A stretch of 21,559 nt of DNA from positions 1 to 21,559 of the forward strand of contig JACPQY010000070.1 in assembly GCA_016190245.1 (NCBI GenBank), read 5' to 3'. A program made the translations under genes and the position numbers. Positions 5,439 to 20,848 of this stretch are shown here, in pieces. The DNA is from Nitrospirota bacterium. Its GTDB lineage: Bacteria; JACPQY01. The first letter of the stretch is position 1. Every line of letters begins with the position of its first letter. The notes beneath the pieces were generated by a model. The model saw nothing but the letters and a program-made list of their open reading frames with translations. It did not search any database and was not told the origin of the DNA.

Positions 5439-5449
5439 GACGCAGGCCC

Positions 5450-5869
5450 TCAGTCGACTTCGGTGATGTCCGGGTCGCGCATGTCCAGCCCCACGCGCAC
5501 GGTGGTTTCGCCGTTGTTGTTCAGGATTGCAATGTGCCACTTCTGCATCGTTCCTGCGCCTATGAGCATGTCCTGAACGAGGTCCGGGGAAACGAGGGCG
5601 GAATCGCGGATCTGTTTGCCCTCAAGAACGATGACCAAGGGGATCTCCCCCGTCACCCGCAGCTTCCCGCCTTGCGCCGCTCTCAACTCCAAAGGGGAGG
5701 TTTGCAGAAAGACGCTCCGCGTCGCCGGAAGGCGGTCCTGTCGGACAATGGTGTAGAACGATCCCGAATCAATCACAGCCCTGATGTCGGCCGTCTTCTC
5801 GTCAAGGGTGCTGATCCTTACCGGCCGGATGGGCTTGCCCACGAGGCTATCGTACGATGAACGGTGCAC
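5450..5869 (-). CDS. Retropepsin-like aspartic protease family protein
   Basis: A 139-residue protein with the two hallmarks of a retroviral-type aspartyl protease monomer. The catalytic loop is AVIDSGSFYTIV (DSG in place of the commoner DTG, near residue 34). The C-terminal flap-side motif is QDMLIGAGTMQKWHI, which corresponds to the usual D-x-L-[IL]-G segment. No signal peptide or transmembrane segment is visible, so it is probably cytoplasmic and dimeric. The start at GTG 5869 is uncertain: the frame stays open upstream (LVPVHRSS) and no clear ribosome site is seen. It lies 32 nt after the BadI-like gene and 11 nt before the WG lipoprotein. The target is unknown. Confidence 0.75.
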   Translation of the reverse strand: MHRSSYDSLVGKPIRPVRISTLDEKTADIRAVIDSGSFYTIVRQDRLPATRSVFLQTSPLELRAAQGGKLRVTGEIPLVIVLEGKQIRDSALVSPDLVQDMLIGAGTMQKWHIAILNNNGETTVRVGLDMRDPDITEVD

Positions 5870-5901: not shown

Positions 5902-6690
5902 CTATTTCCTGAACTTCGAGAAATCCGGGGGGCGCTTCTCCTTGAACGCCTTCAGGCCCTCCTGCGCCTCCTCCGACTGGACATAGAGCGCGAGGGCGCT
6001 CTCGCTCATGCGCGAGATGCCCTCGATGTGATCCGTGTCTGAGTTAAAGGAATGCTTTAGAAACTTTATGGAAGTGCTGCTTTTCGCGAGGATCTCCCTG
6101 CACCACGAAAAGACCTCATCCATAAGTTTGTCCGCCGGTACGACCTTGTTCACGAGGCCCATCTCGATCGCCTCTTGGGCGGTGTACTGCCGGCAGAGGT
6201 ACCAGATTTCGCGGGCCTTCTTCTCGCCAACCACGCGGGCAAGGTAGGCCGTGCCGTAGCCTGCGTCAAAACTCCCGACCTTCGGCCCCACCTGGCCGAA
6301 CTTGGCGGTGTCCGCTGCGATGGTCAGATCGCAGATGACGTGTAGGACGTGACCGCCGCCGATGGCGTATCCGTTCACGGCCGCGATCACCGGCTTGGGG
6401 ATGGCGCGGATGATCCAGTGGAGCGTCTCCATGTCCAGCCCGATACCGGTCTTCGCATCGCCATAGCCCTTCTCGCCGCGGTCCTTCTGGTCGCCGCCCG
6501 TGCAAAAGGCCTTGTCTCCGGCGCCCGTGAGCACCACCACACCGATGGTCGGGTCGTGCCAGGCGTCCTTGAAGGCCAGGATCATTTCGTCCACCGTCTT
6601 GCCACGGAACGCGTTGTACACTTTGGGACGGTTGATCGTGACGATCGCGATGCCGTCCTTCTTCTCGTAAAGAATGTCCTCGAAGTTCAT
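5902..6690 (-). CDS. badI: 2-Ketocyclohexanecarboxyl-CoA hydrolase-like (BadI/MenB branch of the crotonase family)
   Basis: A 262-residue crotonase-fold enzyme. Oxyanion-hole segments are FCTGGDQ (63-68) and AIGGGHV (109-115). The block [16 protein letters not shown] (131-146), with Ser140 and Asp142, and Tyr236 near the C terminus are the MenB/BadI active-site signatures. BadI hydrolyses the ring of 2-ketocyclohexanecarboxyl-CoA to pimelyl-CoA. MenB makes dihydroxynaphthoyl-CoA, and the two families are close. I prefer the BadI role because the gene directly upstream is BadH-like and no other menaquinone gene is present. The sequence [19 protein letters not shown] also resembles BadI more than MenB. 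Start ATG 6690 has GGAGG five bases upstream. The gap to the BadH-like gene is 9 nt. Confidence 0.8.
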
Positions 6691-6699
6691 ACCTGCCTC

Positions 6700-7464
6700 C
6701 TACCCCGCCATCGTAAGGCCGCCGCTGACGCTGAGCACCTGACCGGTGACAAAATCGGCATCCGGAGAGGCGAAATAGACAACTGCGCCGGCGATGTCCT
6801 CCGGCTTCGCGAGCCGCCGGAGGGGCGTGGCCTTGATCATCGCATCAATCACTTTCGCGCCCATCTCGCCGCCGGTCACCCGTTTCAGGAAGGGAGTATC
6901 GGTGGGGCCCGGGCAAACGACATTGACCGTGATCTGATGCCGTGCCAGTTCTCGGGCGAGGGTTTTGGAGAGTCCGATAATCGCCGCCTTGCAGCCCGCG
7001 TACACGGACTCGCCGCTCGAGCCCACCCGCCCCGCGTCGGACGAGATGCTGATGATCTTCCCTTTCTTGTTCCGGATCATCCCGTCCACGACGGCCCGGG
7101 AAAAATGGACAGGCCCCTTGTAGTTGATGGCGATGACCTTGTTCCAGAAGTCCTCCGTCATTTCCGAAAACGGCAGGATCAGGTCCCACCCGGCGTTGTT
7201 CACGAGGACGTCGACGGCTCCTCGCGCGGTCTCGATCTGCTGCACGCACCCCTGAACGGCGCCAAAATCCGTCACGTCCGCTTTGAACGCCCCCCCGGAG
7301 CCGCCGCCCGACTCGATCTCCTTCACAACGGCTCGGGCGCCGTTTTCATCCAGGTCCACCACGGCGATCCAGGCGCCTTCTTTTCCCAGCCGGAGCGCGA
7401 TCGCCCGGCCGATCCCGCTCGCTGCACCGGTCACGATGGCCGTCCTACCGCTCAGGATTCCCAT
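6700..7464 (-). CDS. badH: 2-Hydroxycyclohexanecarboxyl-CoA dehydrogenase-like SDR (BadH-like)
   Basis: A 254-residue classical short-chain dehydrogenase. It has the NAD-binding TGAASGIG (12-19), NNAG (89-92) and a catalytic set of Ser142, Tyr155 and Lys159 in SSDAGRVGSSGESVYAGCK. The stretches VNNAGWD, SSDAGRVGSSGE.VYA.CK, VNVVCPGPTDT and TGQVLSVSGGLTM match what I recall of BadH from Rhodopseudomonas palustris. BadH oxidises the 2-hydroxy group to a 2-keto group just before BadI ring opening. Start ATG 7464 has AAGGAGG nine bases upstream. It sits directly before the BadI-like gene, the same order as the known pathway. The ring size and substituents of the substrate here are unknown. Confidence 0.8.
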   Translation of the reverse strand: MGILSGRTAIVTGAASGIGRAIALRLGKEGAWIAVVDLDENGARAVVKEIESGGGSGGAFKADVTDFGAVQGCVQQIETARGAVDVLVNNAGWDLILPFSEMTEDFWNKVIAINYKGPVHFSRAVVDGMIRNKKGKIISISSDAGRVGSSGESVYAGCKAAIIGLSKTLARELARHQITVNVVCPGPTDTPFLKRVTGGEMGAKVIDAMIKATPLRRLAKPEDIAGAVVYFASPDADFVTGQVLSVSGGLTMAG

Positions 7465-7531
7465 TTCAGTTGCCTCCTTCTCGACTCTGCCGATTCATCT
7501 TCGCGCCGGATTCCTCTCTACCCCACCTCGC

Positions 7532-7550
7532 CTCCCCTTACAAAGGGGAG
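7532..7550. repeat. Palindromic mini-repeat containing the radical SAM stop codon
   Basis: A hairpin with arms ctcccc (7532-7537) and ggggag (7545-7550) around ttacaaa. The loop supplies the TAA stop (7538-7540) of the radical SAM gene, so the last residues (DPLSPL) come from the repeat. The flanking ccccacctcgc resembles the outer part of the element inserted at 9364-9460, so the two may belong to one family. Confidence 0.55.
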
Positions 7551-8634
7551 AGCGGATCGGAGGCCGCCGAACCGGCAGCAGGCTTTCCCATGGGAACCCC
7601 CTCGTGCTTCCAGCACATCGGATCCGAGCCGGTGATGTCGCCCGTGTAGAAATACGCGTTGGCCCGGCACCCCCAGCACACATCCCGATCCGCGCAGGCG
7701 GCGCAGGCGCCGTGGACCTCGAAGTCGTAGCAGAGCTTCCCCGACTCTTCGCGCACGATGTCTTTGAGCGATCCGCGATTCACATTGCCTACCTCGAAGT
7801 CATACAACACGGCGCACGGCAATACACGTCCATCATACGTGATATGGAACTTGGACCGGCAGTAGTGCTTTCCGCACTCCGTAGGCCCGATCCTGAGCCA
7901 ATGCGAACCCAGCCGCTTGGCCCTGTACTCATACGCGCGCCGGATCTCCTCGCGGTTCGGCGTGAAGGCTCCGTCCGCTCCCTTCCCGATCGGATGGTAC
8001 ACGAACATCGGGATGTAGCCCGCGCCCCACCGATCCACGAGATAGTCCAACGTCCGCTCGATCGAGCGCGCAATCGGCTTCGTCAGCGTGAGGCACGGCA
8101 TGATCCGGCTCGAATGAAACCCCGCCTCCTTGAGGTTCTCCAGCGCCCGGTATTTCTGCTCAAGCACTTTGCTCCGGGTGTGCGTCCTCAGGAAGTCCTC
8201 CGCATCGACGGTGTCGAAGTTGATGCCGACCAGATGGAGATTGGGCAGGCCGGCGAGGATCTTCGCCACCCGCTTCGTCACGATCCCCGCGACGAACACA
8301 CTGTTGTTGAGACCCCTTTCACCGGCATGGGCGATCACCCGCTCCCAGTCCCTGTGGAGGATGGGATCGCCGCCACACCACTGCACCTGCGAGATGCCCA
8401 GGTCCACCAGATCATCCACCAAGCGAAGGGCCTGCTCTGTCGGCATGTCCTCCCCCTTGAAAAAGGGCTGCTGGTGTAGCAGTAGGTGCACGCGCCGCCG
8501 CATTTCGAGGTGATCTCGAAGTCCACGATTCGCGGCCTGAGACCCGTCGCCGCCTCGCGTTTGCGCGGGCTTATGTAGCGTTCAAAGTAGTACTCGCTCG
8601 ACGGGATGGGCTTGGAGATCAGGGACGGGCTCAC
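7538..8634 (-). CDS. Radical SAM/SPASM protein, split by a -1 frameshift
   Basis: The first frame (GTG 8634) encodes the radical SAM CX3CX2C motif KCGGACTYCYTSSPF (Cys45, 49, 52), which binds the 4Fe-4S cluster and S-adenosylmethionine. The second frame, entered at 8460-8467, carries the rest: MPTEQALRLVDDL, QVQWCGGDPILH (the GGDP SAM-binding motif) and a C-terminal Cys cluster CAACADRDVCWGC...MCW typical of SPASM/twitch auxiliary clusters. The joined protein is about 365 residues, a normal length. The start overlaps the MaoC stop by 4 nt (GTGA), so the genes are coupled. Families with this layout modify peptides or cofactors, or act on heme or sugar precursors. Its substrate is not evident; context links it to the acyl-CoA pathway. 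Confidence 0.8.
8460..8467 (-). other. -1 frameshift site (slippery heptamer C CCT TTT) in the radical SAM gene
   Basis: The coding strand reads CCCTTTTTCAAG. In the upstream frame the codons are CCT TTT TCA. A one-base backward slip on C CCT TTT (pattern X XXY YYZ) gives CCT TTT TTC AAG and joins the two halves of the protein without loss of conserved residues. A missing T in the T5 run, as mutation or assembly error, explains the same data. AGGGGGAGG with ATG (8446) follows immediately and could allow internal initiation of the second part. Confidence 0.65.
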
Positions 8635-9062
8635 GGGGCCTCCTCCTCATCCTTCATTTCGAGCGCTTCTCCCGTCACCACAACCTCGCCCCGCTGGTTC
8701 GTGAGGGTATGCTTTACCCGGAGCTGCCGCTTCTCGGGGATCAACTCCGTGATCTCGGCGACGGCCGTAATGGTGTCCCCCGGTCGGACGGGTTTGCGGA
8801 ACTCCAACGTCTGCCGGAGGGAAATCCCTCCACCGGTCCCCAGGATCCAGCCGTTCAGCGTGGAGACGAGGCTGCCCACAAGCATCCCATGGGCGATGCG
8901 ACCGCCGAAACGGCTTCGTCGCGCGTACTCCTCGTCCACGTGCACGGGATAGTAGTCGCCCGTGAGCCCTGCGAAGAGGACGATGTCCGTCTCGGTGATC
9001 GTGCGCGTGAGGGTCGCGCGATCGCCGACTTTCAGATCTTCGTAGCGCTTCCGTTCGAGCAT
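8631..9062 (-). CDS. MaoC-like (R)-specific enoyl-CoA hydratase
   Basis: A 143-residue single hot-dog domain. The hydratase-2 signature TGDYYPVHVDEEYARRSRFGGRIAHG carries the catalytic Asp36 and His41 and the GxxxHG turn. Such enzymes add water to trans-2-enoyl-CoA to give (R)-3-hydroxyacyl-CoA; some relatives dehydrate branched or dicarboxylic acyl-CoAs such as mesaconyl- or methylmalyl-CoA. The start ATG 9062 lies after a 152-nt repeat-rich gap from the mutase small subunit, and the stop overlaps the radical SAM start. Its place in the operon suggests it hydrates the product of the acyl-CoA dehydrogenase or of the mutase branch. The exact substrate is unknown. Confidence 0.85.
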   Translation of the reverse strand: MLERKRYEDLKVGDRATLTRTITETDIVLFAGLTGDYYPVHVDEEYARRSRFGGRIAHGMLVGSLVSTLNGWILGTGGGISLRQTLEFRKPVRPGDTITAVAEITELIPEKRQLRVKHTLTNQRGEVVVTGEALEMKDEEEAP

Positions 9063-9214
9063 GTCTCAGAGCCACCAACAGAAAAAGAGCTTCTCGACCC
9101 GCCTGTCCAGTCCGCCACGGCGGACGGACGGGCAGGCCCGCCAAACCTGGAACGGCGGGCAGGCAAGCTCGAAGCCTATTCCGGGGCTGTCGTTCGAGCG
9201 AAGTCGAGAACCTG
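9063..9214. repeat. Intergenic block of REP-like palindromes
   Basis: This 152-nt gap between the mutase small subunit and the MaoC gene contains a strong hairpin gtccgcc-ac-ggcggac (9110-9125). Outside it lie cctgtcc and gggcagg, then a second pair of complementary GC-rich segments (cccgcc ... ggcggg), then tcgagcgaagtcgag. This mosaic looks like stacked mobile palindromic repeats rather than a gene. No long T-run follows the hairpin, so it is not a classical terminator. Confidence 0.6.
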
Positions 9215-9694
9215 TCATGACATCGCAAGGACGGACTGGATCCGCCGGACGATCTCGGTGACCAGCGTGCCCGCGGGGAAGACGTCGTCTGCTCCCGCCT
9301 GTTTGATCTTCGGTATGTCCGTGTTGGGGAAGACGCCGCCGACGAAGAGCTTCACCGACGGCACACCCCCCCCCCCACCCGTACCCTCCCCCTCCAGGGG
9401 GGAGGGAGACTCTTTGTTCTCCTCCCCCTTGACGGGGGAGGACGAAGGTGGGGGTGAGGCCTGCCGCAACCCGCGAGCCTCCATCAAGTGGGCGACCTCC
9501 TGGGTGTAGGTCACGTGCTCCCCGGAGAGAAACGACAGACCGACCGCATCCACGCTCTCCTGGACGGCCGCCGCGACGACCGTTTCCGGCGTCAGCAACT
9601 TGCCCAGATAGACCACCTCGTACCCGGCCTCGCGCAACAGCGTGCTCACCACCTTGATGCCGCGGTCGTGACCGTCCATGCCAACTTTGGCCAT
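9215..9694 (-). CDS. B12-binding (small) subunit of an acyl-CoA mutase, with an inserted repeat
   Basis: A 159-residue cobalamin-binding domain. The base-off/His-on motif DGHDRG (DxHxxG, residues 7-12) supplies the axial His9, followed by GLSFLSG (52-58, SxL) and VGGVFP (GG motif, about 118-123). The start ATG 9694 is preferred because GGAGG lies six bases upstream. A GTG at 9715 overlapping the large-subunit stop is possible. Residues about 79-111 (rich in Ser, Pro, Glu and Gly) are absent from normal family members and come from a palindromic DNA element. They fall in the loop before the strand carrying the GG motif, so the fold could survive. It pairs with the large subunit gene directly upstream. 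Confidence 0.88.
   Translation of the reverse strand: MAKVGMDGHDRGIKVVSTLLREAGYEVVYLGKLLTPETVVAAAVQESVDAVGLSFLSGEHVTYTQEVAHLMEARGLRQASPPPSSSPVKGEENKESPSPLEGEGTGGGGGVPSVKLFVGGVFPNTDIPKIKQAGADDVFPAGTLVTEIVRRIQSVLAMS
9364..9460. repeat. GC-rich palindromic element inserted in frame in the mutase small subunit
   Basis: Two perfect hairpins are visible. One is ccctccccc (9384-9392) with gggggaggg (9398-9406). The other is cctccccc (9421-9428) with gggggagg (9434-9441). Outer segments ccccccaccc and ggtgggggtg are also roughly complementary. The element contributes about 33 codons with no stop and no frameshift. It also creates an 11-base C run (9366-9376), a G run on the coding strand. Confidence 0.75.
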
Positions 9695-9711
9695 GAGGAT
9701 CCTCCGTCGTC

Positions 9712-11514
9712 TCACGCGAACGGATCCATCAGAGCTTCGAGCGGATCATAGGATTCTCCGAACGCGGCCCGTACAACACCCAGCGCCTCGCCCAGGGTCG
9801 CGCCGCAGGACACCGCTTCGCGCATGGCAGGTATCAGGTTCACGTCGGTGAGACCTTCGTGAGCCGGGGCCGTGGACGGCACGATCGGCGTGGAACGACC
9901 TTTCAACGCATCTCTGACCCGCTCGGCGTGCGCGTGGGCGCGGGACGCGATCTCCCGTAGCCTGCCGAGCGAGGCCCGAACCCTGCCGCCATCGCGCCGC
10001 TCTTTCCAGAGCGCCAGCCGGCGGATCTGGTCCGTCTTCGAAGCAGCCGGCGCCTCCTCGCCCACTACCTGCGTATCCTCTTCCGGCGGTATCGAAAACG
10101 CGTTCACCCCCACGATCGTGCGTTCCCCCGACTCGACCTCCTTCTGATACTCGAGCGACGCCTTCTCCATCTCCCGATCAATCCAGCCCGAGTCGATCAC
10201 CTCCACCATGCCTCCCCTTTCCTCGATCTGCGACAGGACCGCTTTCGCCTCCTCCTCGAGCCGATCCGTGAGGGACTCGACGTAGTAGGAGCCGCCGAGG
10301 GGATCGGCGGTGTTGGCGACACCCGTCTCGTACGCGAGCACCTGCTGGGTTCGCAGAGCCAGCCGGTGCGATTGACGAGTGGGCAACGCGAAAGGCTCAT
10401 CGTAGGCGCAGCAGTGCAGCGAACTCGCGCCCGCCAGCGTGGCCGCCAAGGCCTGGTAAGCGATGCGGACGACGTTCACCATCGGCTGCTGGGGATAAAG
10501 CGCACATCCCGCCGTGTGAACCGCGAAGCGGAACTTCCAGGAATCCGGGCTCCGAGCGCCGTATTTCTCCCGCATGAGCCGCGCCCACATCCGCCTTGCG
10601 GCCCGGAGTTTGGCGACCTCTTCAAACAGATCGATGTGGGCGGACATGTAGAAGGCGAAGCGGGGCGCGAACGCATCGATCGGCAGTCCCCGGGCGAGCG
10701 CGCCCTGGACGTAGGCCTCCGCCTGGGCGAGGGCAAAGGCGATCTCCTGGGGCGCATTGATGCCCGTTTCGCGGAAGTCGTAGCCGTTCACGTTGATCGG
10801 ATGCCAACCGGGCACGCACCGGGTCGTGTATTCGATGATGTCCACCGCCGTATGGAGCGCGAGTCCGATCGGCGCGAAAACGGCCGGATAGCCGCAGTAA
10901 CGATGGTGAAGCGGATCGTTCTGGACCGTGCCTCGAAGCGTCGAGACGTCCGCCCCCCGCTTGTGCGCCATCTCCAGGAACATCGAAAGAATCACCGGCG
11001 CCGCGGAGGACGTCACCACGAGCGACACGCTGAGGTTCTCCACAGGGATGCCATCAAACAAGTCCTCCATGTCTTGAAGCGACGAAACCGATGTCCCCTG
11101 AACGCCGATCTCATGCGGCACGCGGGGATGGTCCGCGTCGAGGCCCGTCATCGTGGGGATGTCGAAGATCACGTTGACCCCTGTCTGACCCTCGCGCTGG
11201 AGGTACTTGATCAGCTCATTCGTGTCTTTCGGCCCCCCGATCCCGCAAACCTCGCGCCGCGTCCAGTACCTGCCGCGGTACATGTTCGGGTGGATGCCGC
11301 GGGTGAAGGGATAGGTGCCGGGATCCTCCCTCGGCGGGGGGGCATCCGCAGCCTGATAGGCTTCCTTCACTTCCAGGCCTGACCACGTGGCGGTGCGGCG
11401 GGGGCGCTCGCGGTAGGCGTCAGGACGAGACGGCGTGAAGTCGGGAGGTCGAGAGGTCGAAGGCTTCCCCTGCTCTCTGGCCTGACTGGCGACATCCCGA
11501 CTTCTCGACATCAC
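9712..11514 (-). CDS. Large (catalytic) subunit of a B12-dependent acyl-CoA mutase, non-canonical
   Basis: A 600-residue methylmalonyl-CoA mutase-type TIM-barrel subunit that moves a carbon group by radical rearrangement. The N-terminal CoA-pocket segment PGTYPFTRG...[11 protein letters not shown] (65-88), GTVQND (195-200) and [14 protein letters not shown] near the C-terminal third are family hallmarks. Tyr79 corresponds to the substrate Tyr of methylmalonyl-CoA mutase. By contrast, the usual SGYH is NGYD here (Asp246), and the usual PSMR region is [12 protein letters not shown], so the carboxylate-binding Arg is not evident. It is therefore probably not a methylmalonyl-CoA mutase. The first 40 residues are low-complexity and come from a repeat. 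The start GTG 11514 overlaps the dehydrogenase stop, and an ATG follows at once. The stop overlaps or abuts the small subunit start. Confidence 0.88.
11437..11504. repeat. Inverted repeat encoding the N-terminal tail of the mutase large subunit
   Basis: Arms 11437-11451 (gaagtcgggaggtcg) and 11490-11504 are reverse-complementary at 14 of 15 positions. The stretch encodes about residues 4-26 of the mutase, ahead of the conserved domain. It resembles the gtcgagaagtcg-type intergenic repeats seen in many GC-rich genomes and has been taken into the reading frame. Confidence 0.6.
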
Positions 11515-12686
11515 GACCTCCCCAGCGTGGCTGCTCCGGCCAAGAGCGAGCGGGCGATGACGAGTCGCTGGATCTGGTTCGTGCCCTCGAAAATCTGTGT
11601 CACTTTCGCGTCGCGCATGTACCGCTCCACGGGGTAGTCCTTCGTGTACCCGTACCCCCCCAGAATCTGCACGGCATCCGTCGCCACTTTCATAGCCGTG
11701 TCGGAGGCCAGGAGTTTCGCCATCGAGGCCGCCGCCCCCGCCCCGCGCGATGCCCGATCGGTCTCGGCGGCCGCGTGGTACACAAGCAGGCGGGCGGCAG
11801 TGACGGCGGTCGCCATGTCTGCCAGCATGAATTGGATCGCTTGGAACTGGGCGATGGCCCGGCCGAATTGTTTCCGCTCGGTAGCATACGCCAGGGCGTA
11901 GTCGAATGCCGCCTGCGCGATCCCCACCGCCAAGGCCCCGATCCCTGGACGCGAGCGATCGAAGAACCGGAGTGCGAGAGGGAACCCATCTCCCTCCGCC
12001 CCCAGGCGGTGACTCTCGGGCAACTCACAAGCCTCGAACTCCATCGAGCATGTCCCCGATCCGCAGATGCCCATTTTTTTCTCCGGCTGCCCCGCACGAA
12101 AGCCTTCGGCGCCCCGCTCCACTACGAACGCCGAGAACCCCTTCTTGCCCGCCGAGCGATCCGTCGAAGCGAACACCACAACGACGTCGGCCTCGGGCCC
12201 GTTCGTAATGAAGACCTTCCGGCCGTTCAGGACGTAGTGCCCTTCCCGGCGGGTCGCCGTCGTGGACATGGCCGAGATATCGCTCCCCGCCTGGGGCTCC
12301 GTGAACGCGATGGCCCCGATCTTTTCGCCCGATGCCAGCGCCGGGATCCATCTCCGCTTCTGTTCGTCCGATCCCGCCATCAAGATTGGGTAGGCGCAGT
12401 GCGTCTGCGTCGCGAACGCCGTGGCCGTGGAGGCGCATGCCCGGGCGATCTCTTCGACCGCGAGACAGAGACTCACCACGCCCTCCCCGCTTCCGCCGCA
12501 CTCCTCTGGCATCACCAAGCCGAGGAGCCCCACTTCAGCCAACAGGCGCAGGTTCTCTCGCGGAAACTCGCCCGTCGCATCGATCGCCGCCGCCCGGGGC
12601 GCGATTTCCTTCCGGACGATGCGCCGCGCCTGATCCCTGATCAACCTTTGCTCCTCGGTGAGAACCGAGTCCAGGTCATCTACCAC
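11511..12686 (-). CDS. Acyl-CoA dehydrogenase
   Basis: A 391-residue FAD-dependent acyl-CoA dehydrogenase of normal length. FTEPQAGSD (128-136) is the FAD/substrate signature. The C-terminal segment [34 protein letters not shown] carries the catalytic base Glu367. It introduces a 2,3 double bond into an acyl-CoA and passes electrons to an ETF. The chain length or ring preference cannot be read from sequence. In cyclohexanecarboxylate degradation this step is done by BadJ/AliB, and the BadH/BadI-like genes downstream make that role plausible. The start GTG 12686 overlaps the preceding SDR stop by 7 nt and the stop overlaps the mutase start, so all three are translationally coupled. Confidence 0.9.
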
Positions 12687-13465
12687 GACGCCGTCTGCCC
12701 CCCATCAATGGTGAAGACGGACCCTGTGACGAACGAAGACGCCTCCGAAGCCAGGTAGACGACGAGGGGCCCAATTTCCCCGGGACGCCCGATCCGTCGC
12801 ATGGGAATCCGGCCGAGGATCGCTTCACGCGCACGATCCACTTTCATCGCCTCGTCGCTCATGCCGGTGGCGAAGTAGCCGGGCGAGATCGCGTTCACCC
12901 GCACGCCGAACCGGGCCCACTCGACGGCCAACGCCTTCGTCAGGCTGACGATGGCCCCTTTGGACGCGCAGTAAGAGGCCATGCGATTGACGCCCATCTC
13001 GGACCAGATCGAGGAGATGTTGATGATGCTCCCCGAGCCTGCCTTGACCATATGCGCTCCCACCCCCCGACAGAGACGGTAGCACGCACCCAGGTTCGTT
13101 TCGATCACCTCGCTCCACTCGTCTTCACCGATCTGCAGGAACGGCTTCTCCAGAAGGATCCCGGCGTTGTTCACGAGGACGTCGATTCTTCCGAATCGCT
13201 CCCATGCCTTCGCGACGAGTGCGACGCAATCCGCCGCCTTCGACACATCCGCGCGCACCGGGAGGAACTCCCTGCCCGGCGTTGCCGCGGCCTGGCCCGT
13301 CTCTTGCAAACCCTCTTCGCTCCGCGCCGCGGCCACGACGTTGGCCCCCGCCTCGGCGAGGGCGACACAGATCGCTCGGCCGAGGCCCCGGCTCGCGCCG
13401 GTCACAATCGCTGTCTTGCCCTCCAGAGTCACGGGGCATGCGTCATGGGTCATGGGACAGGCCAT
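12680..13465 (-). CDS. Short-chain dehydrogenase/reductase (FabG-like)
   Basis: A classical SDR of about 261 residues. The Rossmann motif is TGASRGLG, followed by VNNAG and the catalytic Ser152, Tyr165 and Lys169 in [20 protein letters not shown]. The C terminus [12 protein letters not shown] is typical of 3-oxoacyl-ACP or gluconate-type reductases. It is clearly different from the BadH-like SDR at 6700-7464. It may oxidise a 3-hydroxyacyl-CoA made by the hydratase. Several close starts exist. ATG 13465 (or GTG 13468) has AGGG about ten bases upstream and overlaps the end of the CoA transferase; ATG 13453 is also possible. Confidence 0.85.
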
Positions 13466-14834
13466 CACATTCGCGCCCTATTTCCGATATCTCTTCAGCG
13501 GAGAACCCGTGGGCGGCCAGGATCTCCTCCGTGTGCTCGCCCAGGACGGGCGGTCCGAAGGGTTCAGGGGTCATCGTCTGCGCGAGTTTCCATGGCACTC
13601 CCGCCAAGCGGATTCGGCCCAGGGTGTCGTGTTCCAGATCGAGGAGCGCCCCCCGAGCCAAGACTTGGGGTTCGGCCACGACTTCCTCGCACGAGTTGAC
13701 AGGTCCGCACGGCACACCCGCCTCAGACAGCAGCGAAATCCATTCCTGCTTCGTCCGCGCTGGGAACTCCGATTCGAGAATCTCGAACAGCTCCATCTGG
13801 CGCGCCTTGCGATCCGCGTTGGTCCTGAACCTCGCATCGTCCCGGAGCTGCGGGCGACCGAGGGCTAGGCACAGTCTCGACCAGATTTCATCATTCCCCA
13901 CCGCCAGCGTGACAAACCCATCCTTCGCCCGGAAGGACCTGTAGATCGCGATGGGCGACTCCGACCCTCCGCGGCAGCGCTGGAGTTCATCCCCGACCAG
14001 ATAGGCGGCGAGGCGGGGCGCCATGAAGGCAATTTGCCCGTCCAGAAGCGAGACGTCAATGAATTCGCCGCGGCCCGTCTCGCGCCGTCGCACCAGACAA
14101 CTGGCGATGGCGAACGCCGCGAACATCCCCGCCACGATGTCCGACACCGCCGTCCCCACCTTGAGCGGCCGCCGCCCCTCCTCCGTGCTCACGCTCATGA
14201 TCCCCCCGTACCCCTCCCCGATGAGATCGTAGGCGGGAGCGTCGCGTAGCGGCCCGTCCATTCCGAAACCCGTGATGGCGCAGTAGATCAATTCGGGGTG
14301 ACCCTGCGACAACTCGTTGTAGGTCAGCCCGCTACGCTCCAGCGCGGCGGGCCTCATGTTCTCGACGAACACATCGGCCGAGCCGATCAGCCTCAGGAGC
14401 GCGGGGCGACCGGCCGCGCCCTTCATGTTCAGCAAAACACTCTTCTTGTTTCGATTGGCCGAGAGAAACCACGCGCTCTCACCCTGCTTCATCCCACCAC
14501 ATGAAACGGCGCTTGAGCGACCCTCCTGGCTGGTTGCAGGTGGTGGGATGAAGGGCGGGCCCCACGTCCGGCACTCGTCCCCCGCCGGCGGCCGCTCCAC
14601 TTTGATCACCTCCGCTCCCATGTCTCCCAGCATCATCGTGCAATAGGGCCCCGCGTAGGACCCGCTGATGTCCACCACGCGGGTCCCGGCCAAGGGCAGA
14701 TCCTGGGTTGCTTCCGACAGGGACTCCCCGCTCATGGTTCGATCCGCCGCGGCGGACTCACCACGAGCGGGAACGGACCCGCTCGCCCTGTCCACCATAG
14801 GCGGATTGTCGAAGGGCGATGCGATGTGGGTCAT
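13443..14834 (-). CDS. Family III CoA transferase (CaiB/BaiF type)
   Basis: A protein of about 463 residues. The start ATG 14834 has an excellent GAGGAGG site and follows the previous stop by 7 nt. [35 protein letters not shown] is the conserved N-terminal CoA-binding region. [10 protein letters not shown] holds the catalytic Asp203, which forms the acyl anhydride intermediate. Members move CoA between carboxylic acids, so this gene probably activates the pathway substrate. Two oddities are seen. About 45 extra N-terminal residues include a palindromic repeat. An extra segment of about 21 residues (96-116, [12 protein letters not shown]...GGMK) interrupts the usual link between WGPPF and [12 protein letters not shown]. 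Confidence 0.9.
14487..14553. repeat. 67-bp element with perfect 14-bp terminal inverted repeats inside the CoA transferase gene
   Basis: Arms cttcatcccaccac (14487-14500) and gtggtgggatgaag (14540-14553) are perfect reverse complements with a 39-nt interior. The element encodes the extra residues 96-116 of the CoA transferase without a stop or frame change. It looks like a miniature mobile palindrome captured by the gene. Confidence 0.8.
14764..14785. repeat. Hairpin repeat in the N-terminal extension of the CoA transferase
   Basis: Arms cgagcggg (14764-14771) and cccgctcg (14778-14785) form a perfect 8-bp stem with a 6-nt loop. Surrounding caccacgagcgg and accatgagcgg words resemble widespread GC-rich dispersed repeats. 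It lies between the well-supported start and the first conserved residue of the enzyme. Confidence 0.5.
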
Positions 14835-14841
14835 ACCCTCC

Positions 14842-15279
14842 TCAAGATTCTGCCTCGTCCTCCTCGATCTCTTCTTCCGCCGCCGCGCTGCTCCTGCGGC
14901 CGGCAGCAACAAGCGCCATGAATCGGCCCGAATCCGACGGGGACTCCGAAGAGACCGTGCTCCCTCTCCGCCCGTTCGACCAAAGAGTGGACATCAGCGC
15001 AAAGGGATAGGTCACTAGGAACAGGCCGACGAAGGCCGTGAGTTTCACAAAAAGACCGAGCCTCTTCGGTGTGGCCATGTATCCTGCCATCCGGGGACTC
15101 AGGGCGATGGAAAAGAAATCATCCCAGCAGGTCTTCTGCATGCCGATGACGTAGGCCCAGTTCACGGGAGCCTTCACCCTACCGGTCAGAACCAGTTCAC
15201 GGCCATCGTCCTCCACCCCTTCTGTCCCGATGTCGATCGCCATGCTTCGCCTGCCGAGACCCTTGGACCAGAATTGCAT
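14842..15279 (-). CDS. Small membrane protein of unknown function, WSKGLG paralog A
   Basis: A 145-residue protein that I cannot assign to a family. It begins MQFWSKGLGRR, followed by a soluble beta-rich part with LVLTGRVKAPVNWAYVIGM. One hydrophobic helix (about residues 74-98, FVKLTAFVGLFLVTYPFALM) ends in a Ser-rich and then acidic tail (EEEIEEDEAES). The same opening and the same LTGxxxxxxxW pattern occur in the next gene upstream, so the two are tandem paralogs. It lies between the FAD oxidoreductases and the CoA transferase, 7 nt before the latter. It may be a membrane-anchored partner of the oxidoreductases; this is inference from position only. Confidence 0.75.
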   Translation of the reverse strand: MQFWSKGLGRRSMAIDIGTEGVEDDGRELVLTGRVKAPVNWAYVIGMQKTCWDDFFSIALSPRMAGYMATPKRLGLFVKLTAFVGLFLVTYPFALMSTLWSNGRRGSTVSSESPSDSGRFMALVAAGRRSSAAAEEEIEEDEAES

Positions 15280-15282
15280 GAC

Positions 15283-15306
15283 AGCTTTCAGCTTTCAGCT
15301 TTCAGC
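15283..15306. repeat. Tandem 7-bp repeat (agctttc)
   Basis: Three perfect copies of agctttc (15283-15303) plus a partial fourth span the 3' end of paralog B and the 8-nt gap before paralog A. The repeat encodes the last residues LKAES of paralog B and occupies the ribosome-binding region of paralog A, where no good Shine-Dalgarno sequence is seen. Copy-number change could alter the coupling of the two genes. Confidence 0.8.
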
Positions 15307-15644
15307 GATCGGCCGCGCGAGACGTCGTCCGGAACGGACGTAGGCCGCGTGAGCCACGCCTTCACGAAATACCCCACGAACTTCAGGCTGTCCTTCACAA
15401 CCCGGAGCCACAACTCGGCCCCCCCGTGGCGCGCCAGAAACGTTCGCACGTCTCGCTGATTCACAAAACGGACGAAACGGATCATGTCGTCTTCCGTGAG
15501 CGCCATCTTGTACCACCAGCGGACTTTTCGAACGGGAATGATACCCGTAAGGACCACACCGTCGGACGCCGTGGCGACGTCCGCCTCGCGCAAGTTGAGG
15601 GGAAGGATGTACTTCGAGCCGAGCCCCTTGGACCACAATCGCAT
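15288..15644 (-). CDS. Small protein of unknown function, WSKGLG paralog B
   Basis: A 118-residue protein. ATG 15644 is chosen because GGAGG lies nine bases upstream and because the next gene starts the same way (MRLWSKGLG versus MQFWSKGLG). The Arg-rich in-frame extension upstream overlaps the FAD gene and is unlikely. It contains DGVVLTGIIPVRKVRWWYKMALTEDD and a mildly hydrophobic segment LWLRVVKDSLKFVGYFVKAWL near the C terminus, more amphipathic than a clear membrane helix. No family recognised. It starts 4 nt after the stop of the FAD oxidoreductase, which suggests functional linkage. Confidence 0.72.
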   Translation of the reverse strand: MRLWSKGLGSKYILPLNLREADVATASDGVVLTGIIPVRKVRWWYKMALTEDDMIRFVRFVNQRDVRTFLARHGGAELWLRVVKDSLKFVGYFVKAWLTRPTSVPDDVSRGRSLKAES

Positions 15645-15648
15645 GTGC

Positions 15649-17346
15649 CTACGCCTCCGCCTTCGGCAGGTACCCTTTCCTGCGCGCCTCGGTGACGGTG
15701 GCATCCTCTCCAGGCAAGCCCTTGATCCCGAGGTCCTCCGCTACCACGCGCGCCGCGTTGTAGCCCGATCCGAGGATCACCATCCCGCCCGGGTGCGTGC
15801 TGGCGCCGCCCACGTAGAGCCCCTTCACGGGCGTGCGATACGATGAGCAATCCGGCGACGGCCGGTTGTAGCCCATCTGGAGCGTCACGTAGGCGCCGTG
15901 CTTGATTGCGCCTCGCTTCATCGTGGGGATCTCGCGTTCGATATCGAGGGGCGACCACGGAATCCTTACCCGCACATTGGCGTGCCGGATGTTGGGAGCG
16001 TAATGGGCCCACTTCTCCATGCACCGGTCCGCGTAGGCCTCGCGTCGTGCCTCCCAGTCGGTTCGATACGGCGCCCAGCACTCCCACCTGAGCACGTGGT
16101 GCTCCCCGAAGGGCACGTGGTTGGGAACGAGCAGGGAATCGAACAGCGAGAGACAGCTCCCGTGCCCCGCAATCGCGTCCGGCAGCTTTCCATCCCGCAA
16201 CTCCGAGACGTGGTGCAGCACGTCCTCAGGGCTCTCGAAACCCATCACAACCACCAACGCGCCGTTCACCTCGTCCTCGTACCCCTCGTACTTCGGCGCA
16301 CTGCCCACCACGCCCGAGCTGCACACAAAGAGGCTCCACTCGTCCCACTGCCACTCGGACGCCATGTCGCGCAGTTCGGCGATCTCATCGCCCCAAGCCG
16401 CTACAATCCCTCCCTTCCCCTGCCCTCCGGCGGCGGCGGGCGCCGCGTGCGTTCCATCAAGAAGCGTTACAAAGGTTTGTTCCGGGTTGAGGGTACTTAC
16501 CACGGCGCGCGCCCGCAGCTCGCCATCGGCGAGCCGCACGCCCACGACCCGTTCGCCCTCCATGACGAACGATTGCACCTGCGAGTTCGTCACCACGCGT
16601 CCGCCGAACTCCTCCACCGTTCTCCTCAGACCGGAGGCGAGTTGATGGGACCCGCCCCGCACCAGCGCGTTCTGCGTGAGGCGGTGGACGTAAATCGGCG
16701 CGAGAAAACCCATCCCGCTCTCCTCGGGATCGAGACCGAACATCGACGAAAGGTAGAGGATGCCCGCCTTCACGCGCCGGTCGGCGAACTTGTACCGATC
16801 GATGACCTCGAGTGGGGAGAGCTCGGAGATGTCCGCAATGACTTTCCCGAGCTTGTCGGCGTTCTGCAGGAGTTCGACCTGTTCGATCGGCTCTACGGGC
16901 GGGGCGTACGTGGCCGGGATCAGAAACGCGTCGCACATCTTCTGAAAGTCGTCGTGGAGCCGGCCGAACGCCTCCGCATCCTTTGGGGAGAGCTTCGCGA
17001 TGGACGCCTGCGAACGCTTCACGTCCGTGTAGAGAGTGAAGGACGACTTGTCCTCGAACAGAAACGCCACCTGGGCCTCCGGGCGCACGAAGGCCACTCC
17101 GCGATCGGCGAGGTTCAAATCGGAGTACGGCACCATGCGCTCGGCCAGCATCATGTAGGTCGCGTGATGGTTCAGCTTGAACCCGGAGATTTCCTGCGTC
17201 AGCAGGCCGCCGCCCGATTCCACGTTCTTCTCGATCACGGCCACTTTCGCCCCCGCCTTCGCCAAATAAGCCGCGCACGTCAGGCCGTTGGGGCCGGCGC
17301 CGATCACCAGGGCGTCGTATTCTTGCGATCCGTCTTGCGTGCTCAT
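15649..17346 (-). CDS. FAD-dependent oxidoreductase, phytoene desaturase (CrtI)-like, copy 1
   Basis: A 565-residue flavoprotein. The N-terminal dinucleotide motif is VIGAGPNGLTCAAYLAKAG (GxGxxG at 16-21) followed by VIEKN. The C-terminal FAD motif is GLYVGGASTHPGGMVILGSGYNAA, as in CrtI, carotenoid isomerase and PDPR-type oxidoreductases. Start ATG 17346 has a GAGGGG site and lies 10 nt after the preceding gene; the longer in-frame form is rejected. Members desaturate, isomerise or saturate isoprenoid or other hydrophobic chains. The length and pairing with a second homologue recall the paired CrtI-like enzymes of bacterial isoprenoid clusters, but no phytoene synthase is present, so a role on the degraded substrate is more likely. 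Confidence 0.87.
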   Translation of the reverse strand: MSTQDGSQEYDALVIGAGPNGLTCAAYLAKAGAKVAVIEKNVESGGGLLTQEISGFKLNHHATYMMLAERMVPYSDLNLADRGVAFVRPEAQVAFLFEDKSSFTLYTDVKRSQASIAKLSPKDAEAFGRLHDDFQKMCDAFLIPATYAPPVEPIEQVELLQNADKLGKVIADISELSPLEVIDRYKFADRRVKAGILYLSSMFGLDPEESGMGFLAPIYVHRLTQNALVRGGSHQLASGLRRTVEEFGGRVVTNSQVQSFVMEGERVVGVRLADGELRARAVVSTLNPEQTFVTLLDGTHAAPAAAGGQGKGGIVAAWGDEIAELRDMASEWQWDEWSLFVCSSGVVGSAPKYEGYEDEVNGALVVVMGFESPEDVLHHVSELRDGKLPDAIAGHGSCLSLFDSLLVPNHVPFGEHHVLRWECWAPYRTDWEARREAYADRCMEKWAHYAPNIRHANVRVRIPWSPLDIEREIPTMKRGAIKHGAYVTLQMGYNRPSPDCSSYRTPVKGLYVGGASTHPGGMVILGSGYNAARVVAEDLGIKGLPGEDATVTEARRKGYLPKAEA

Positions 17347-17356
17347 CGGGGCCCCC

Positions 17357-19006
17357 TCAGAAGCCGCCCGTGAGAAAGCCCTTGCCCGCGAAGTAGTCGA
17401 GCGGCCGGTGCGTCCACCAGTCCCGCTTGCGCACACCGAGGTCCTCGGCCACCGAGCAAGCCGCCACGTACCCGTTTCCCAGGTGCGTGAGCGACGCCGG
17501 CCAGATGCCCTGGCTGAAATACAAGCCGGGGATTTTCGATCGGGCGGGGATGCGGCCGAAATACCACTGACCGCCGCTCACGTCCCCGCCGAGCTCGTGG
17601 CCGTAGATCGCCGAAGGATTCCTCCGCCAATTGTCGATGGGCGTGTAGTACGTGTGGGCCAGAAGCTGATCCTTGAAACCGCTGATCAAGGCCCCGAGAT
17701 CGTCCATGTGGCTCTGGTGCAGGCGGTCGGTCAGCTCCCGGTTGTCCCACGCCTGAATCCCGCCGTAGCGTCTGAGGTTCATCGGATACTCGACTTCGTA
17801 CACGACCACGGTGCGGCCCTCGGGCGACACGCGGGTGGGGTCCACCGAGGAGAGGTTGTACATCTCGCCCACGTCACCGGCGACGGAAAACAGCTCCTCG
17901 TTCTTCGCGTATTGGAAGGATCGCTTCGCGTGGTCCCAGGAGTCCCACGCGCGAAGGGGGAACGCGCACTGGTTCACGTCCGGGTCCCATGATTCGGAAG
18001 CCCAGCGAGGCCGGCTCTTGAGGAGGACGTATGAGGTGAAGGCGCAGTGACCGGTCATGTCCCAGTCCTCCATCTTGCCCCACAGCTCGGGGTCCTTCGG
18101 CGCGATGGCGTCCTTCCCCAGCATCTCCTTCGCCAATGGAGGGCTCACGTGCATCACCACCGCCTGGCGGGCGCGGAACTCTCGGGTTGGGTACGGGGCG
18201 GCGTCGTTCAGATGCACGCGCCGGGGCGTCCCGTTTTCGAATTCCACGCGCTCGACGGGAGCATTGTAGAAGAGCGACCCGCCGTGGGTGCGGAAGCAAC
18301 GCACGAGCGAGTGGACCAGGTTGTGCATCCCGCCGCGCGGAACGCCGAAGGCGAGCGTGAAGCCGAGCAGCGACATGATAACGCCCTCGCCCTTCTCCGC
18401 GGGATCGCCGAACACGCCGATGGCAGAGCCGCCCATGCAGCTCATCCGCACGTAGTCGCTCTCGTACATGAGGTCAAAGAGCTCGAAACCGTTCATCGTC
18501 TTGAGATCCTTGGGCGAGAAACCGACGTGCTTTCCCATCCCCCACAAGAAATCGAGGTTCTCCTCCGAGGGCGAGCTGAAAACGCCCCGCTCCAGGATCT
18601 CGGGGGCCTGCGGGATGATCGAGCCGGCCGCTCTGAAAAACGTCTCGGCGTCCTTTTTCGAAAAGCGCGCGAAGGCCTCGTAGGTGCGGGCCGGATCGGT
18701 GCTGAAGAGTAGGTTCTTCCCGTCCTTCCAGACCGTGCCGGCGGGGACTTTCGGAATGATGAGGTCCAGACCGAACTTCTCGAGCTCGAGATCCGCCCAG
18801 GCCGGACTCATGACCACGAAGCAGACGCCCGCATGGGTGTCCACGGGAACGCCGCCGCCGAAGATGTCCTCCGTGAGCGCGAACGGGCCGCACTCGTTCC
18901 GCTTCTCGAAGACGGCCACCTCGAGGCCCGCCTTCTGGAGATAGCAGCCGCAGGCAAGGCCGTTGATGCCTCCCCCGACGATGATGACGTCAAACTCCGC
19001 CTTCAT
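17357..19006 (-). CDS. FAD-dependent oxidoreductase, CrtI-like, copy 2
   Basis: A 549-residue flavoprotein. FDVIIVGGGINGLACGCYLQKAG is the N-terminal FAD site. The C-terminal GLYFSQGIWPASLTHLGNGYVAACSVAEDLG is a variant of the family's second FAD motif. It is distantly related to the next gene and not a recent duplicate, since the substrate regions differ widely. ATG 19006 overlaps the TetR stop by 4 nt (ATGA), so it is coupled to the regulator and is the first enzyme of the operon. Substrate unknown; a hydrophobic or cyclic compound is plausible from family behaviour. Confidence 0.87.
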   Translation of the reverse strand: MKAEFDVIIVGGGINGLACGCYLQKAGLEVAVFEKRNECGPFALTEDIFGGGVPVDTHAGVCFVVMSPAWADLELEKFGLDLIIPKVPAGTVWKDGKNLLFSTDPARTYEAFARFSKKDAETFFRAAGSIIPQAPEILERGVFSSPSEENLDFLWGMGKHVGFSPKDLKTMNGFELFDLMYESDYVRMSCMGGSAIGVFGDPAEKGEGVIMSLLGFTLAFGVPRGGMHNLVHSLVRCFRTHGGSLFYNAPVERVEFENGTPRRVHLNDAAPYPTREFRARQAVVMHVSPPLAKEMLGKDAIAPKDPELWGKMEDWDMTGHCAFTSYVLLKSRPRWASESWDPDVNQCAFPLRAWDSWDHAKRSFQYAKNEELFSVAGDVGEMYNLSSVDPTRVSPEGRTVVVYEVEYPMNLRRYGGIQAWDNRELTDRLHQSHMDDLGALISGFKDQLLAHTYYTPIDNWRRNPSAIYGHELGGDVSGGQWYFGRIPARSKIPGLYFSQGIWPASLTHLGNGYVAACSVAEDLGVRKRDWWTHRPLDYFAGKGFLTGGF

Positions 19007-19650
19007 TGTTTCCTCCCAGGATCTTGACTTGGTGCGATGCCTCCGTTGGTCCCCTCCTCCCCGCGCAGCACGGGCCCGAGAAGGGAACGCATCAGCCTAG
19101 GATCGGGGGCGGGCAGACGGCCCAGTTGACTGGAGATGATCATGTAGTGATAGCCGCTCACGAAGATCCACTTTACGACCTCGATGTCCACATCGGAGCG
19201 GAAAATCCCCGCCTCGGTGCCGCGACGGATGCCTTGCTCCAAGATCATCTCGGCGCGAGCAATGTTCTCGTTGAGGATCTCTTTCACCTTCGGTTCCTGG
19301 GACTCGGAGAGGGCCGAGAGAACGAGACGGCCATACTCCGGGCAGTCCCTCAGGTATTCGGTGAAATAGGTGTAGGCCACCGCAAAGGCCCGGAGGGGAT
19401 CGCTCAAGTGCTCTTCGATGATCCGCTCGAGCGCCCCGGTGAGTTCCCGGCCGGCCTCGCGTAGGCTTTCAACGAAGATCTCTTCCTTGCTGGCGAAGTG
19501 CTGGAAGAGGAGGGCCTCGGATACTCCGGATTCCTCGGCAATCGCCTTGGTCGTCGCGCGGCGGTAGTTGGAGCGCCCGAACGCGGAGGCCGCTTTCTGA
19601 AGGATATGGGCTCGGCGTTCAGGCTTCGAGAGTCGCTCAGCGTATCCCAT
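19003..19650 (-). CDS. TetR/AcrR family transcriptional regulator
   Basis: A 215-residue regulator. The N-terminal helix-turn-helix is ILQKAASAFGRSNYRRATTKAIAEESGVSEALLFQHFASKEEIF (about 15-58), a textbook TetR domain. The C-terminal helical region would bind a ligand, probably an acyl-CoA or pathway intermediate. ATG 19650 is chosen because it begins right before the conserved domain and just after a palindromic operator. A start at ATG 19680 would put the operator inside the gene. Neither has a clear ribosome site. It is the first gene of the long operon and overlaps the next, so autorepression of the whole pathway is likely. Confidence 0.88.
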   Translation of the reverse strand: MGYAERLSKPERRAHILQKAASAFGRSNYRRATTKAIAEESGVSEALLFQHFASKEEIFVESLREAGRELTGALERIIEEHLSDPLRAFAVAYTYFTEYLRDCPEYGRLVLSALSESQEPKVKEILNENIARAEMILEQGIRRGTEAGIFRSDVDIEVVKWIFVSGYHYMIISSQLGRLPAPDPRLMRSLLGPVLRGEEGTNGGIAPSQDPGRKQ

Positions 19651-19658
19651 GTTTTTTG

Positions 19659-19676
19659 TGAGTGAGTACACACTCA
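19659..19676. promoter_or_regulatory. 18-bp palindromic TetR-type operator
   Basis: The sequence tgagtgagtacacactca is symmetrical in all base pairs except one (positions 7 and 12). The half-site tgagtg and its spacing are typical of TetR-family operators. It lies 9 nt upstream of the chosen TetR start, so binding would block transcription of the regulator and the downstream operon. A weak sigma-54-like pair (GG 19689-19690 and GC 19677-19678, ten bases apart) overlaps this region on the minus strand but is less convincing than the one at 4166-4182. Confidence 0.7.
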
Positions 19677-19692
19677 GCATGAAGCAAGCCAA

Positions 19693-20106: not shown

Positions 20107-20499
20107 CTATTCCATCCAATCCTCGATCTTGAGGCCGGGGATTCTGGGGAATCCTCGCTTGTCATGCGTAACAAACGTGCCTCCGCGGCTCAATGCGACG
20201 GCGCCGATCATGGCGTCCACGGCGGGCGCCGGCTGGCCCGACTTCCTCAATCGTGTCTGTATCTCCCCGTAGGCTCGCGCCGATTCCACGTCAAATTCGA
20301 CGAAATGAACCGATGACAAGAAAGCTTCCAATTTCGGCAAGTTGTCGGCCGCTCGGGCCGACGCCTTGAAACCATAGTACAGTTCGGCGGCCACAATCGA
20401 TGAAACAGCAAGCTGCCCTTCATTCGCAAGAAAGTGCCCCTTGACGGATAAGTTCCCATTGAGGAACGCAACGCAGATGTTCGTGTCGAGAAAAAACAC
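20107..20499 (-). CDS. vapC: PIN-domain toxin, VapC-like ribonuclease
   Basis: A 130-residue PIN domain with the complete acidic active site: Asp5 in FLDTN, Glu39 in AAELYYG, Asp95 in AVDAMIGAVAL and Asp113 in THDKRGF. These residues coordinate metal for RNA cleavage, usually of tRNA or rRNA in VapC toxins. The start GTG 20499 follows the antitoxin stop directly (TGA GTG), which is typical translational coupling in toxin-antitoxin operons. It is expected to be held inactive by the upstream gene product. Confidence 0.9.
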   Translation of the reverse strand: MFFLDTNICVAFLNGNLSVKGHFLANEGQLAVSSIVAAELYYGFKASARAADNLPKLEAFLSSVHFVEFDVESARAYGEIQTRLRKSGQPAPAVDAMIGAVALSRGGTFVTHDKRGFPRIPGLKIEDWME

Positions 20500-20724: not shown

Positions 20725-20848
20725 CAGGACAAGGATACCTCCGCGGTGCAGGCGTGACAAGCAAGCCCGACTGGTCAACTCTCTCGGTTTGCAACCATAC
20801 CGCGCAGCCGCCGCCGCAATCCACGCCCACGTCGGGGGTCCAGGCATC

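Follow-up and report, generated by a model that had tools for sequence, protein, structure and literature searches.

A minus-strand operon of a Nitrospirota bacterium for the probable degradation of a cyclic natural compound by an undescribed route

The two ends of the pathway discussed here have known precedents in the ctm and mrc genes of Castellaniella defragrans and in the bad-ali pathway of cyclohexanecarboxylate degradation. The limonene dehydrogenase CtmAB and the delta-24 sterol desaturase (delta-24-SD) are related two-subunit flavoproteins, and the domain structure of CtmAB is CrtI-like (PMC4109377; PMC11061730). In Castellaniella, the small hypothetical genes ctmC and ctmD come after ctmB, and MrcD and MrcE, analogues of BadH and BadI, open the ring of perillyl-CoA (PMC4109377). 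For Aromatoleum, a badKHI cluster has been proposed to act in the breakdown of monoterpenes (PMC9795900). The 21,559-base stretch analyzed here (the window), contig JACPQY010000070.1 of a Nitrospirota bacterium, carries an operon that joins CtmAB-type flavoproteins and BadH- and BadI-like enzymes to a divergent B12-dependent acyl-CoA mutase.

Similarly to the C. defragrans ctm and mrc genes, the operon contains adjacent, dissimilar genes for CrtI-like flavoproteins, followed by two small hypothetical genes, and appears to provide for BadH/BadI-type opening of a terpenoid acyl-CoA ring. Unlike in C. defragrans, all these genes belong to a single operon, which has no CtmEF ferredoxin system, GeoAB dehydrogenases, or CoA ligase and adds a CaiB-type CoA-transferase, the B12 mutase, and a radical SAM protein. 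The delta-24 steroid desaturase of Sterolibacterium denitrificans belongs to the same two-subunit flavoprotein family, with a His residue for covalent flavin mononucleotide (FMN) in each subunit, but acts on a sterol side chain, and no BadHI or mutase has been reported in its unit. The logic of the bad-ali pathway (AliA, AliB, BadK, BadH, BadI) recurs in the acyl-CoA dehydrogenase (ACAD), hydratase, BadH-like, and BadI-like proteins of the window. Here, however, a CoA-transferase stands in for the ligase, MaoC for BadK, and TetR for the MarR-type BadR; the BadH- and BadI-like proteins score below the model cut-offs; and the flavoproteins, mutase, and radical SAM protein are extra. Anaerobic limonene degradation in Syntrophobacteraceae LiM6 (lss and lrc operons) likewise involves a CoA transferase, the hydrolase LrcA for ring opening, and, encoded elsewhere, a methylmalonyl-CoA mutase. 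In that organism, however, limonene is activated by glycine-radical fumarate addition, with no CtmAB-type enzyme, and the mutase belongs to the lower pathway.

Operon layout and conservation

The window (63% GC) is a single contig of a 3.29-Mb, 86-contig genome with an estimated completeness of 85%. Open reading frames (ORFs) and family searches reveal 14 co-directional minus-strand genes from 19650 down to 5902 (Table 1), in the order TetR, FAD1 and FAD2 (the flavoprotein subunits), WSK1 and WSK2 (the small proteins), CaiB CoA-transferase, short-chain dehydrogenase (SDR), ACAD, mutase large subunit, B12-binding subunit, MaoC, radical SAM/SPASM protein, BadH-like, and BadI-like. These genes form one operon: 9 of the 13 junctions are overlaps or gaps of 8 nucleotides (nt) or less, two more measure 9 to 10 nt (the BadH-like gene lies 9 nt upstream of the BadI-like gene), and the wide ones are the B12-MaoC junction (152 nt, containing a dispersed repeat) and the radical SAM-BadH junction (73 nt).

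The comparison set included 386 relatives from about 260 families of the domain, with a single member of the same family (G001, from a different genus). G001 carries all 14 genes in identical order with no insertions, at 57% (TetR) to 89% (FAD1) identity, and the widest gap within its operon is 16 nt. The sequence-only reading of this stretch had described one minus-strand operon with close junctions and had named its enzyme families; the former is confirmed by the junction lengths and the collinear operon of G001, the latter by the family searches, which find all these families encoded co-directionally on the minus strand. That reading had also proposed synteny in unrelated genomes as support for a single pathway and scattering of the genes in related genomes as a sign against it. 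The sole close relative keeps the cluster intact, but among unrelated genomes only sub-modules were detected. The FAD1-FAD2 pair with two WSKGLG-type proteins recurs in G168, G212, and G341, where the FAD1 homologues are 59-61% identical. In an Acidobacteriota metagenome-assembled genome (MAG; locus L071), a flavoprotein pair, a WSRGLG protein, and homologues of BadH (52%) and BadI (67%) fall within about 10 kb, the pair and the WSRGLG protein lying about 4 kb from the BadH and BadI homologues, with an ACAD gene adjoining. The FAD2 search gave no match in 231 other Acidobacteriota, so this locus is rare. A second CtmAB-type cluster with a WSRGLG protein, found in a Myxococcota MAG (locus L059), also includes a divergent mutase (see below), a B12 subunit, and MeaB.

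Enzymes encoded in the operon

FAD1 and FAD2 show 29-30% identity in their cross-match, and published CtmAB and delta-24-SD subunit pairs are 26-27% identical to each other. In delta-24-SD, FMN is bound covalently to a His residue in a motif that is also found in CtmAB and has the form G-F-L/R-X-N/S-T/L-H-A in the N-terminal part of each subunit (PMC11061730). FAD2 carries GFKLNHHA, and in the VPVDTHAG sequence of FAD1 the flavin His is present and the remaining motif is partial. The His-Ala of this motif is found in 41 of 43 family members, which were themselves gathered by motif. NCBIfam models detect only a distant CrtI/CrtO similarity in both proteins. The earlier description of two CrtI-like oxidoreductases thus holds at that distance, but there is strong evidence, including the flavin-His motif, for placing them in the CtmAB/delta-24-SD family. 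This evidence bears on family membership and not on a particular substrate.

The small proteins WSK1 and WSK2 have no matches in Pfam, NCBIfam, PHROGs, or the PDB, and their motif was not found in the literature searched, with most subscription papers outside the coverage. A motif search confined to CtmAB-type loci, which says nothing on whether the family is restricted to them, revealed WS[KR]GLG proteins in 9 genomes from several phyla, always within the flavoprotein cluster; the tenth genome with WSKGLG-type proteins is G168, whose first copy reads ASKGLG. The alignment contains conserved W4, S5, G7, L8, G9, G33, V39, and W41. In a weak AF2 (AlphaFold2) model, with a predicted local distance difference test (pLDDT) score of 63, the N-terminal part appears as beta structure and the C-terminal part as helices, and a hydrophobic C-terminal stretch is seen in WSK2 of the window and in some homologues. 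These proteins comprise an uncatalogued family whose members lie next to flavoprotein pairs of this type across several phyla. By gene order, with sequences not compared, WSK1 and WSK2 occupy the position matching ctmC and ctmD; that they are of the same family as CtmC and CtmD is a lead, not a result.

The mutase shares the two-subunit architecture and fold of methylmalonyl-CoA mutase (MCM), isobutyryl-CoA mutase (ICM), and 2-hydroxyisobutyryl-CoA mutase (HCM), with an MM_CoA_mutase domain, a B12-binding subunit with the DxHxxG motif, and conserved Gln197, Tyr243, and Glu370. Its nearest solved structure is HCM (4r3u; 411 bits versus 323 for human MCM). In an alignment to Propionibacterium shermanii MCM, with numbering based on the Y89F chain 5req, positions 89, 114, 116, 197, 207, 243, 244, 285, 287, 328, 330, 366, and 370 read V N I Q G Y D A Y A H C E, versus Y S A Q R Y H S F H Q N E in MCM, F S A Q Q Y H S F H Q N E in an ICM-type row (labeled so from its residues), and I S D Q Q Y H A F H Q N E in HCM. 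The protein therefore departs from these classes at 9-10 active-site positions, with Val, Asn, Ile, Gly, Asp, Tyr, Ala, His, and Cys at 89, 114, 116, 207, 244, 287, 328, 330, and 366. At the class-determining positions 89/116/207 it has V/I/G together with Asp244, as opposed to Y/A/R (MCM), F/A/Q (ICM), and I/D/Q (HCM), all with His244.

Most of this pattern is common to G001 and two paralogues from G033, the third G033 paralogue having Ala at position 244. The five divergent mutases form a clade (98/77) split from all sampled MCM, ICM, and HCM rows (100/95) and probably represent a new acyl-CoA mutase subfamily. The extremely divergent mutase of the Myxococcota locus (L059:16234-18326) also has Asp at MCM position 244. 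Loss of Arg/Gln207 and His244 with retention of Gln197, Tyr243, Glu370, and MDGHDRG fits a B12 mutase that is active on a different substrate. Both genomes hold other mutases of this family, some with MCM-type residues (Tyr89/Arg207); on this ground and on its own residues, assignment of the window protein as the MCM of the methylmalonyl pathway was rejected. One of the three G033 paralogues (loci L198, L199, and L200) lies beside a protein resembling a 2-hydroxyacyl-CoA dehydratase subunit, and the contig of L198 carries another mutase of a further unusual type.

The ACAD, MaoC, BadH-like, and BadI-like proteins make up a full set for ring beta-oxidation and hydrolysis, the combination that opens the ring in the bad-ali pathway. 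The two best NCBIfam models for ACAD are acryloyl-CoA reductase (422 bits, cut-off 640) and cyclohexane-1-carbonyl-CoA dehydrogenase (401 bits, cut-off 650). For the crotonase, the choice is between BadI and MenB. In trees of modest sampling with some long rows, the MenB clade (98/94-98/95) takes in every menD-adjacent row and excludes the window protein, contrary to the firm MenB clustering that would have spoken against the sequence-only reading; the window protein also stays outside the pair that includes the sole protein above the BadI cut-off, from G375, the only one of 50 homologue-bearing genomes to reach it. A homologue in G363 that is followed by a MenA-looking gene scores 433/406 on the MenB models and 338 on the BadI model. 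No MenD above the cut-off was found in the window genome or G001. A plain menaquinone-synthesis MenB was rejected on the tree placement and the missing MenD, and a function outside menaquinone synthesis is well supported. The Ser-Phe-Asp and Tyr residues, which we take to be catalytic in both MenB and BadI, are conserved in the alignment of the window protein. Its identity as a BadI is tentative; hydrolytic ring opening is suggested by the linked BadH, MaoC, and ACAD genes. In G183 and G038, MenB/BadI-like genes are followed by CaiB and ACAD genes (L205:9686-12816 and L206:391-3524) and are unlinked to MenD, a further non-menaquinone use of the crotonase family.

Proposed pathway and competing explanations

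With moderate confidence, the locus can be read as an operon under TetR control for the catabolism of an isoprenoid or terpenoid-like compound that is alicyclic and unsaturated. FAD1/FAD2 would oxidize an allylic position without O2, either by hydroxylation, as in limonene dehydrogenase, or by desaturation, as in delta-24-SD. WSK1 and WSK2 would assist as accessory subunits, perhaps by anchoring the enzyme in the membrane. The SDR, together with enzymes encoded outside the operon, would convert the product to a carboxylic acid, from which the CaiB-type transferase would form the CoA ester. The B12 mutase could then move the CoA-carboxyl group to a neighboring carbon; its most plausible starting point is a quaternary ring carbon at which beta-oxidation is blocked. 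Ring beta-oxidation by ACAD, MaoC, and BadH would yield a 2-oxo-alicyclic acyl-CoA, from which ring opening by the BadI-like hydrolase would give a branched dicarboxylyl-CoA. For the radical SAM/SPASM protein, a role as a maturase or in an extra radical step is probable. The sequence-only reading is thus upheld in part: the cyclic, perhaps terpenoid-like substrate that it envisaged is supported, with the terpenoid framing strengthened, and so is its linking of BadHI-type opening to a B12 mutase. In a search with most subscription literature outside its coverage, no precedent was found for a mid-pathway mutase step, and no paper brought together an alicyclic acyl-CoA mutase with BadI and limonene dehydrogenase. 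The Myxococcota locus with CtmAB-type, WSRGLG, and Asp244 mutase genes and the Acidobacteriota locus with flavoprotein and BadHI genes are counted in favor of the catabolic reading.

Several observations weigh against it. The complete gene set was not found outside the family among the 386 genomes and is known from only two genomes of one family. CtmA-D and delta-24-SD were compared through published descriptions and the motif rather than by sequence alignment. The ferredoxin/reductase pair CtmEF is not encoded in the operon (the remaining genome was not searched for ctmE and ctmF), and family searches of the operon proteins found no thiolase or aldehyde dehydrogenase. Given the extent of the changes in its active site, the mutase may carry out a different chemistry. 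Of the BadH- and BadI-like assignments made earlier, the ring-opening set and the position outside the MenB clade stand, but the BadH-like protein misses the TIGR03206 cut-off (309.1 versus 431.2 bits), and the BadI-like protein scores 368.7 bits on TIGR03210, below its cut-off of 467.6, while passing those of the MenB models PRK07396 (391.7; cut-off 380) and TIGR01929 (371.5; 342.7). The substrate, the step order, the mutase reaction, and the roles of the WSKGLG and radical SAM proteins are all inferred.

The mutase might, with a distinctly lower probability, act after ring opening, on a short branched acyl-CoA (isobutyryl- or methylmalonyl-like), enabling its beta-oxidation downstream of an ordinary CtmAB and BadHI upper pathway. 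Limonene degraders do have a methylmalonyl-CoA-type mutase in the lower pathway (PMC12583861), and the gene sits among acyl-CoA genes; however, at most catalytic positions the protein has none of the residues typical of MCM, ICM, or HCM, MCM-type and other mutases are available in both genomes, and the operon has no thiolase. Rather less probable is a sterol- or triterpenoid-like polycycle as the substrate, desaturated by FAD1/FAD2 in the manner of delta-24-SD, with BadI opening a nucleus ring or a late fragment. The flavoprotein family does include delta-24-SD (PMC11061730), and the related module in G168 is accompanied by two ACAD genes, but neither a molybdenum hydroxylase nor any known steroid ring-degradation gene was found in the operon. 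The MenB scores, together with acryloyl-CoA reductase as the top ACAD model, could also point to a biosynthetic operon, in which a MenB-type Claisen ring closure and reductive BadH, MaoC, and ACAD homologues would make an alicyclic or quinone-like product tailored by the radical SAM protein and flavoproteins. We consider this improbable, given the position of the crotonase outside the MenB clade, the missing MenD, the fit of the CoA-transferase/hydratase/dehydrogenase set to known catabolic ring opening, and the lack of a synthase, ligase, or transporter typical of biosynthetic clusters.

Within the catabolic reading, a more specific and only tentative proposal is that the mutase represents a new class, with Asp in place of His244 and without the substrate-binding Arg/Gln. 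By rearranging a ring-bound acyl-CoA, it would make a quaternary or otherwise blocked alicyclic carbon accessible to BadHI opening. Recalcitrant cyclic terpenoids would then be degraded by a route that needs no oxygen, and the WSKGLG proteins would form an undescribed family of subunits in covalent-flavin oxidoreductases. How bacteria handle quaternary and branched carbons of cyclic terpenoids without O2 is largely an open problem. With candidate activation, skeleton-rearrangement, and ring-opening enzymes in one transcription unit, each step could be expressed and assayed. Two further leads from the operon are an acyl-CoA mutase subfamily whose active site is rebuilt and an unnamed family of small proteins accompanying limonene-dehydrogenase-type flavoproteins.

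Regulatory region and other features

Table 1. Features of the operon in the window (percentages are identities to G001 orthologues)
Feature	Coordinates	Strand	Evidence or remarks
Candidate operator, 19-bp block TGCTGAGTGTGTACTCACT directly 5' of the TetR ATG	19661..19679	-	Identical in G001
TetR-family regulator, first gene	19003..19650	-	Pfam TetR_N 2.6e-12; 57%
FAD1, CtmAB/delta-24-desaturase-type flavoprotein subunit	17357..19006	-	VDTHAG flavin-His motif; 89%
FAD2, second CtmAB-type flavoprotein subunit	15649..17346	-	GFKLNHHA motif; 77-84%
WSK1, small WS[KR]GLG-family protein	15288..15644	-	Recurs beside FAD1/FAD2 homologues
WSK2, small WS[KR]GLG-family protein, hydrophobic C-terminal helix	14842..15279	-	Motif; weak AF2 model
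Class III (CaiB) CoA-transferase	13443..14912	-	Pfam CoA_transf_3 3.7e-121; 68% from residue 58
Short-chain dehydrogenase (SDR)	12680..13468	-	78%
Acyl-CoA dehydrogenase (ACAD)	11511..12686	-	76%
B12 acyl-CoA mutase large subunit, divergent subfamily	9712..11514	-	Pfam MM_CoA_mutase 7.8e-167; active-site residues, tree
B12-binding mutase subunit	9215..9715	-	MDGHDRG motif; family match
MaoC-type hydratase	8631..9062	-	88%
Radical SAM/SPASM gene	7538..8634	-	Frameshifted in assembly; intact (364 aa) in G001
BadH-like dehydrogenase	6700..7464	-	Best model TIGR03206; 85%
BadI/MenB-type crotonase, probable ring-opening hydrolase	5902..6690	-	Model scores and trees; 86%

The ORF of the TetR regulator reaches to a TTG at 19692, but its start is best set at 19650, the end coordinate given in the sequence-only reading, as the G001 orthologue begins at the equivalent ATG. 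The region around the conserved 19-bp block is otherwise diverged between the two genomes, and a 5-nt indel after the block argues against its conservation by coding, making it a plausible operator. The true start of the CaiB CoA-transferase is probably at about 14834 or 14735.

Compared with G001, the radical SAM gene lacks one base between 8464 and 8465, through either a real mutation or an assembly error. The CX3CX2C motif therefore lies upstream of the ORF at 7538-8503 and out of frame with it, so that the motif and the SPASM domain are both present in the window but split across frames. Relatives of this protein (35-43%) are found in multiple copies in G228 and G088, some adjoining CoA-transferase, crotonase, MaoC, SDR, or ACAD genes, so they seem to form a family with ties to acyl-CoA metabolism that has yet to be studied. 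Members of a multi-copy radical SAM/SPASM family near such genes (CaiB in the case of the CoA-transferase) lie at L258, L259, L260, and L262.

The gene for the B12-binding subunit contains an in-frame dispersed-repeat insertion of about 30 amino acids (aa) at about 9367-9458 (protein SPSPLEGEGTGGGG), which is not in G001 and has related copies elsewhere in the genome; it resembles palindromic elements that insert into coding genes. The dispersed repeat between the B12-binding subunit and MaoC genes (9098-9142) is GC-rich and about 40 bp long; it has more than 30 copies in the genome and is not found at this junction in G001.

Outside the operon, a VapBC-like pair (a PIN-domain protein and an AF2212-like antitoxin) is encoded on the minus strand at 20107-20847. 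A WG-repeat protein (Pfam WG_beta_rep, 8 repeats) is encoded directly downstream of the operon at 4473-5540. The region 3-4138 contains a large LamG-like/Ig-like ORF (3-3632) and an upstream ORF in another frame with a signal-peptide-like start (3551-4138), possibly one frameshifted gene.

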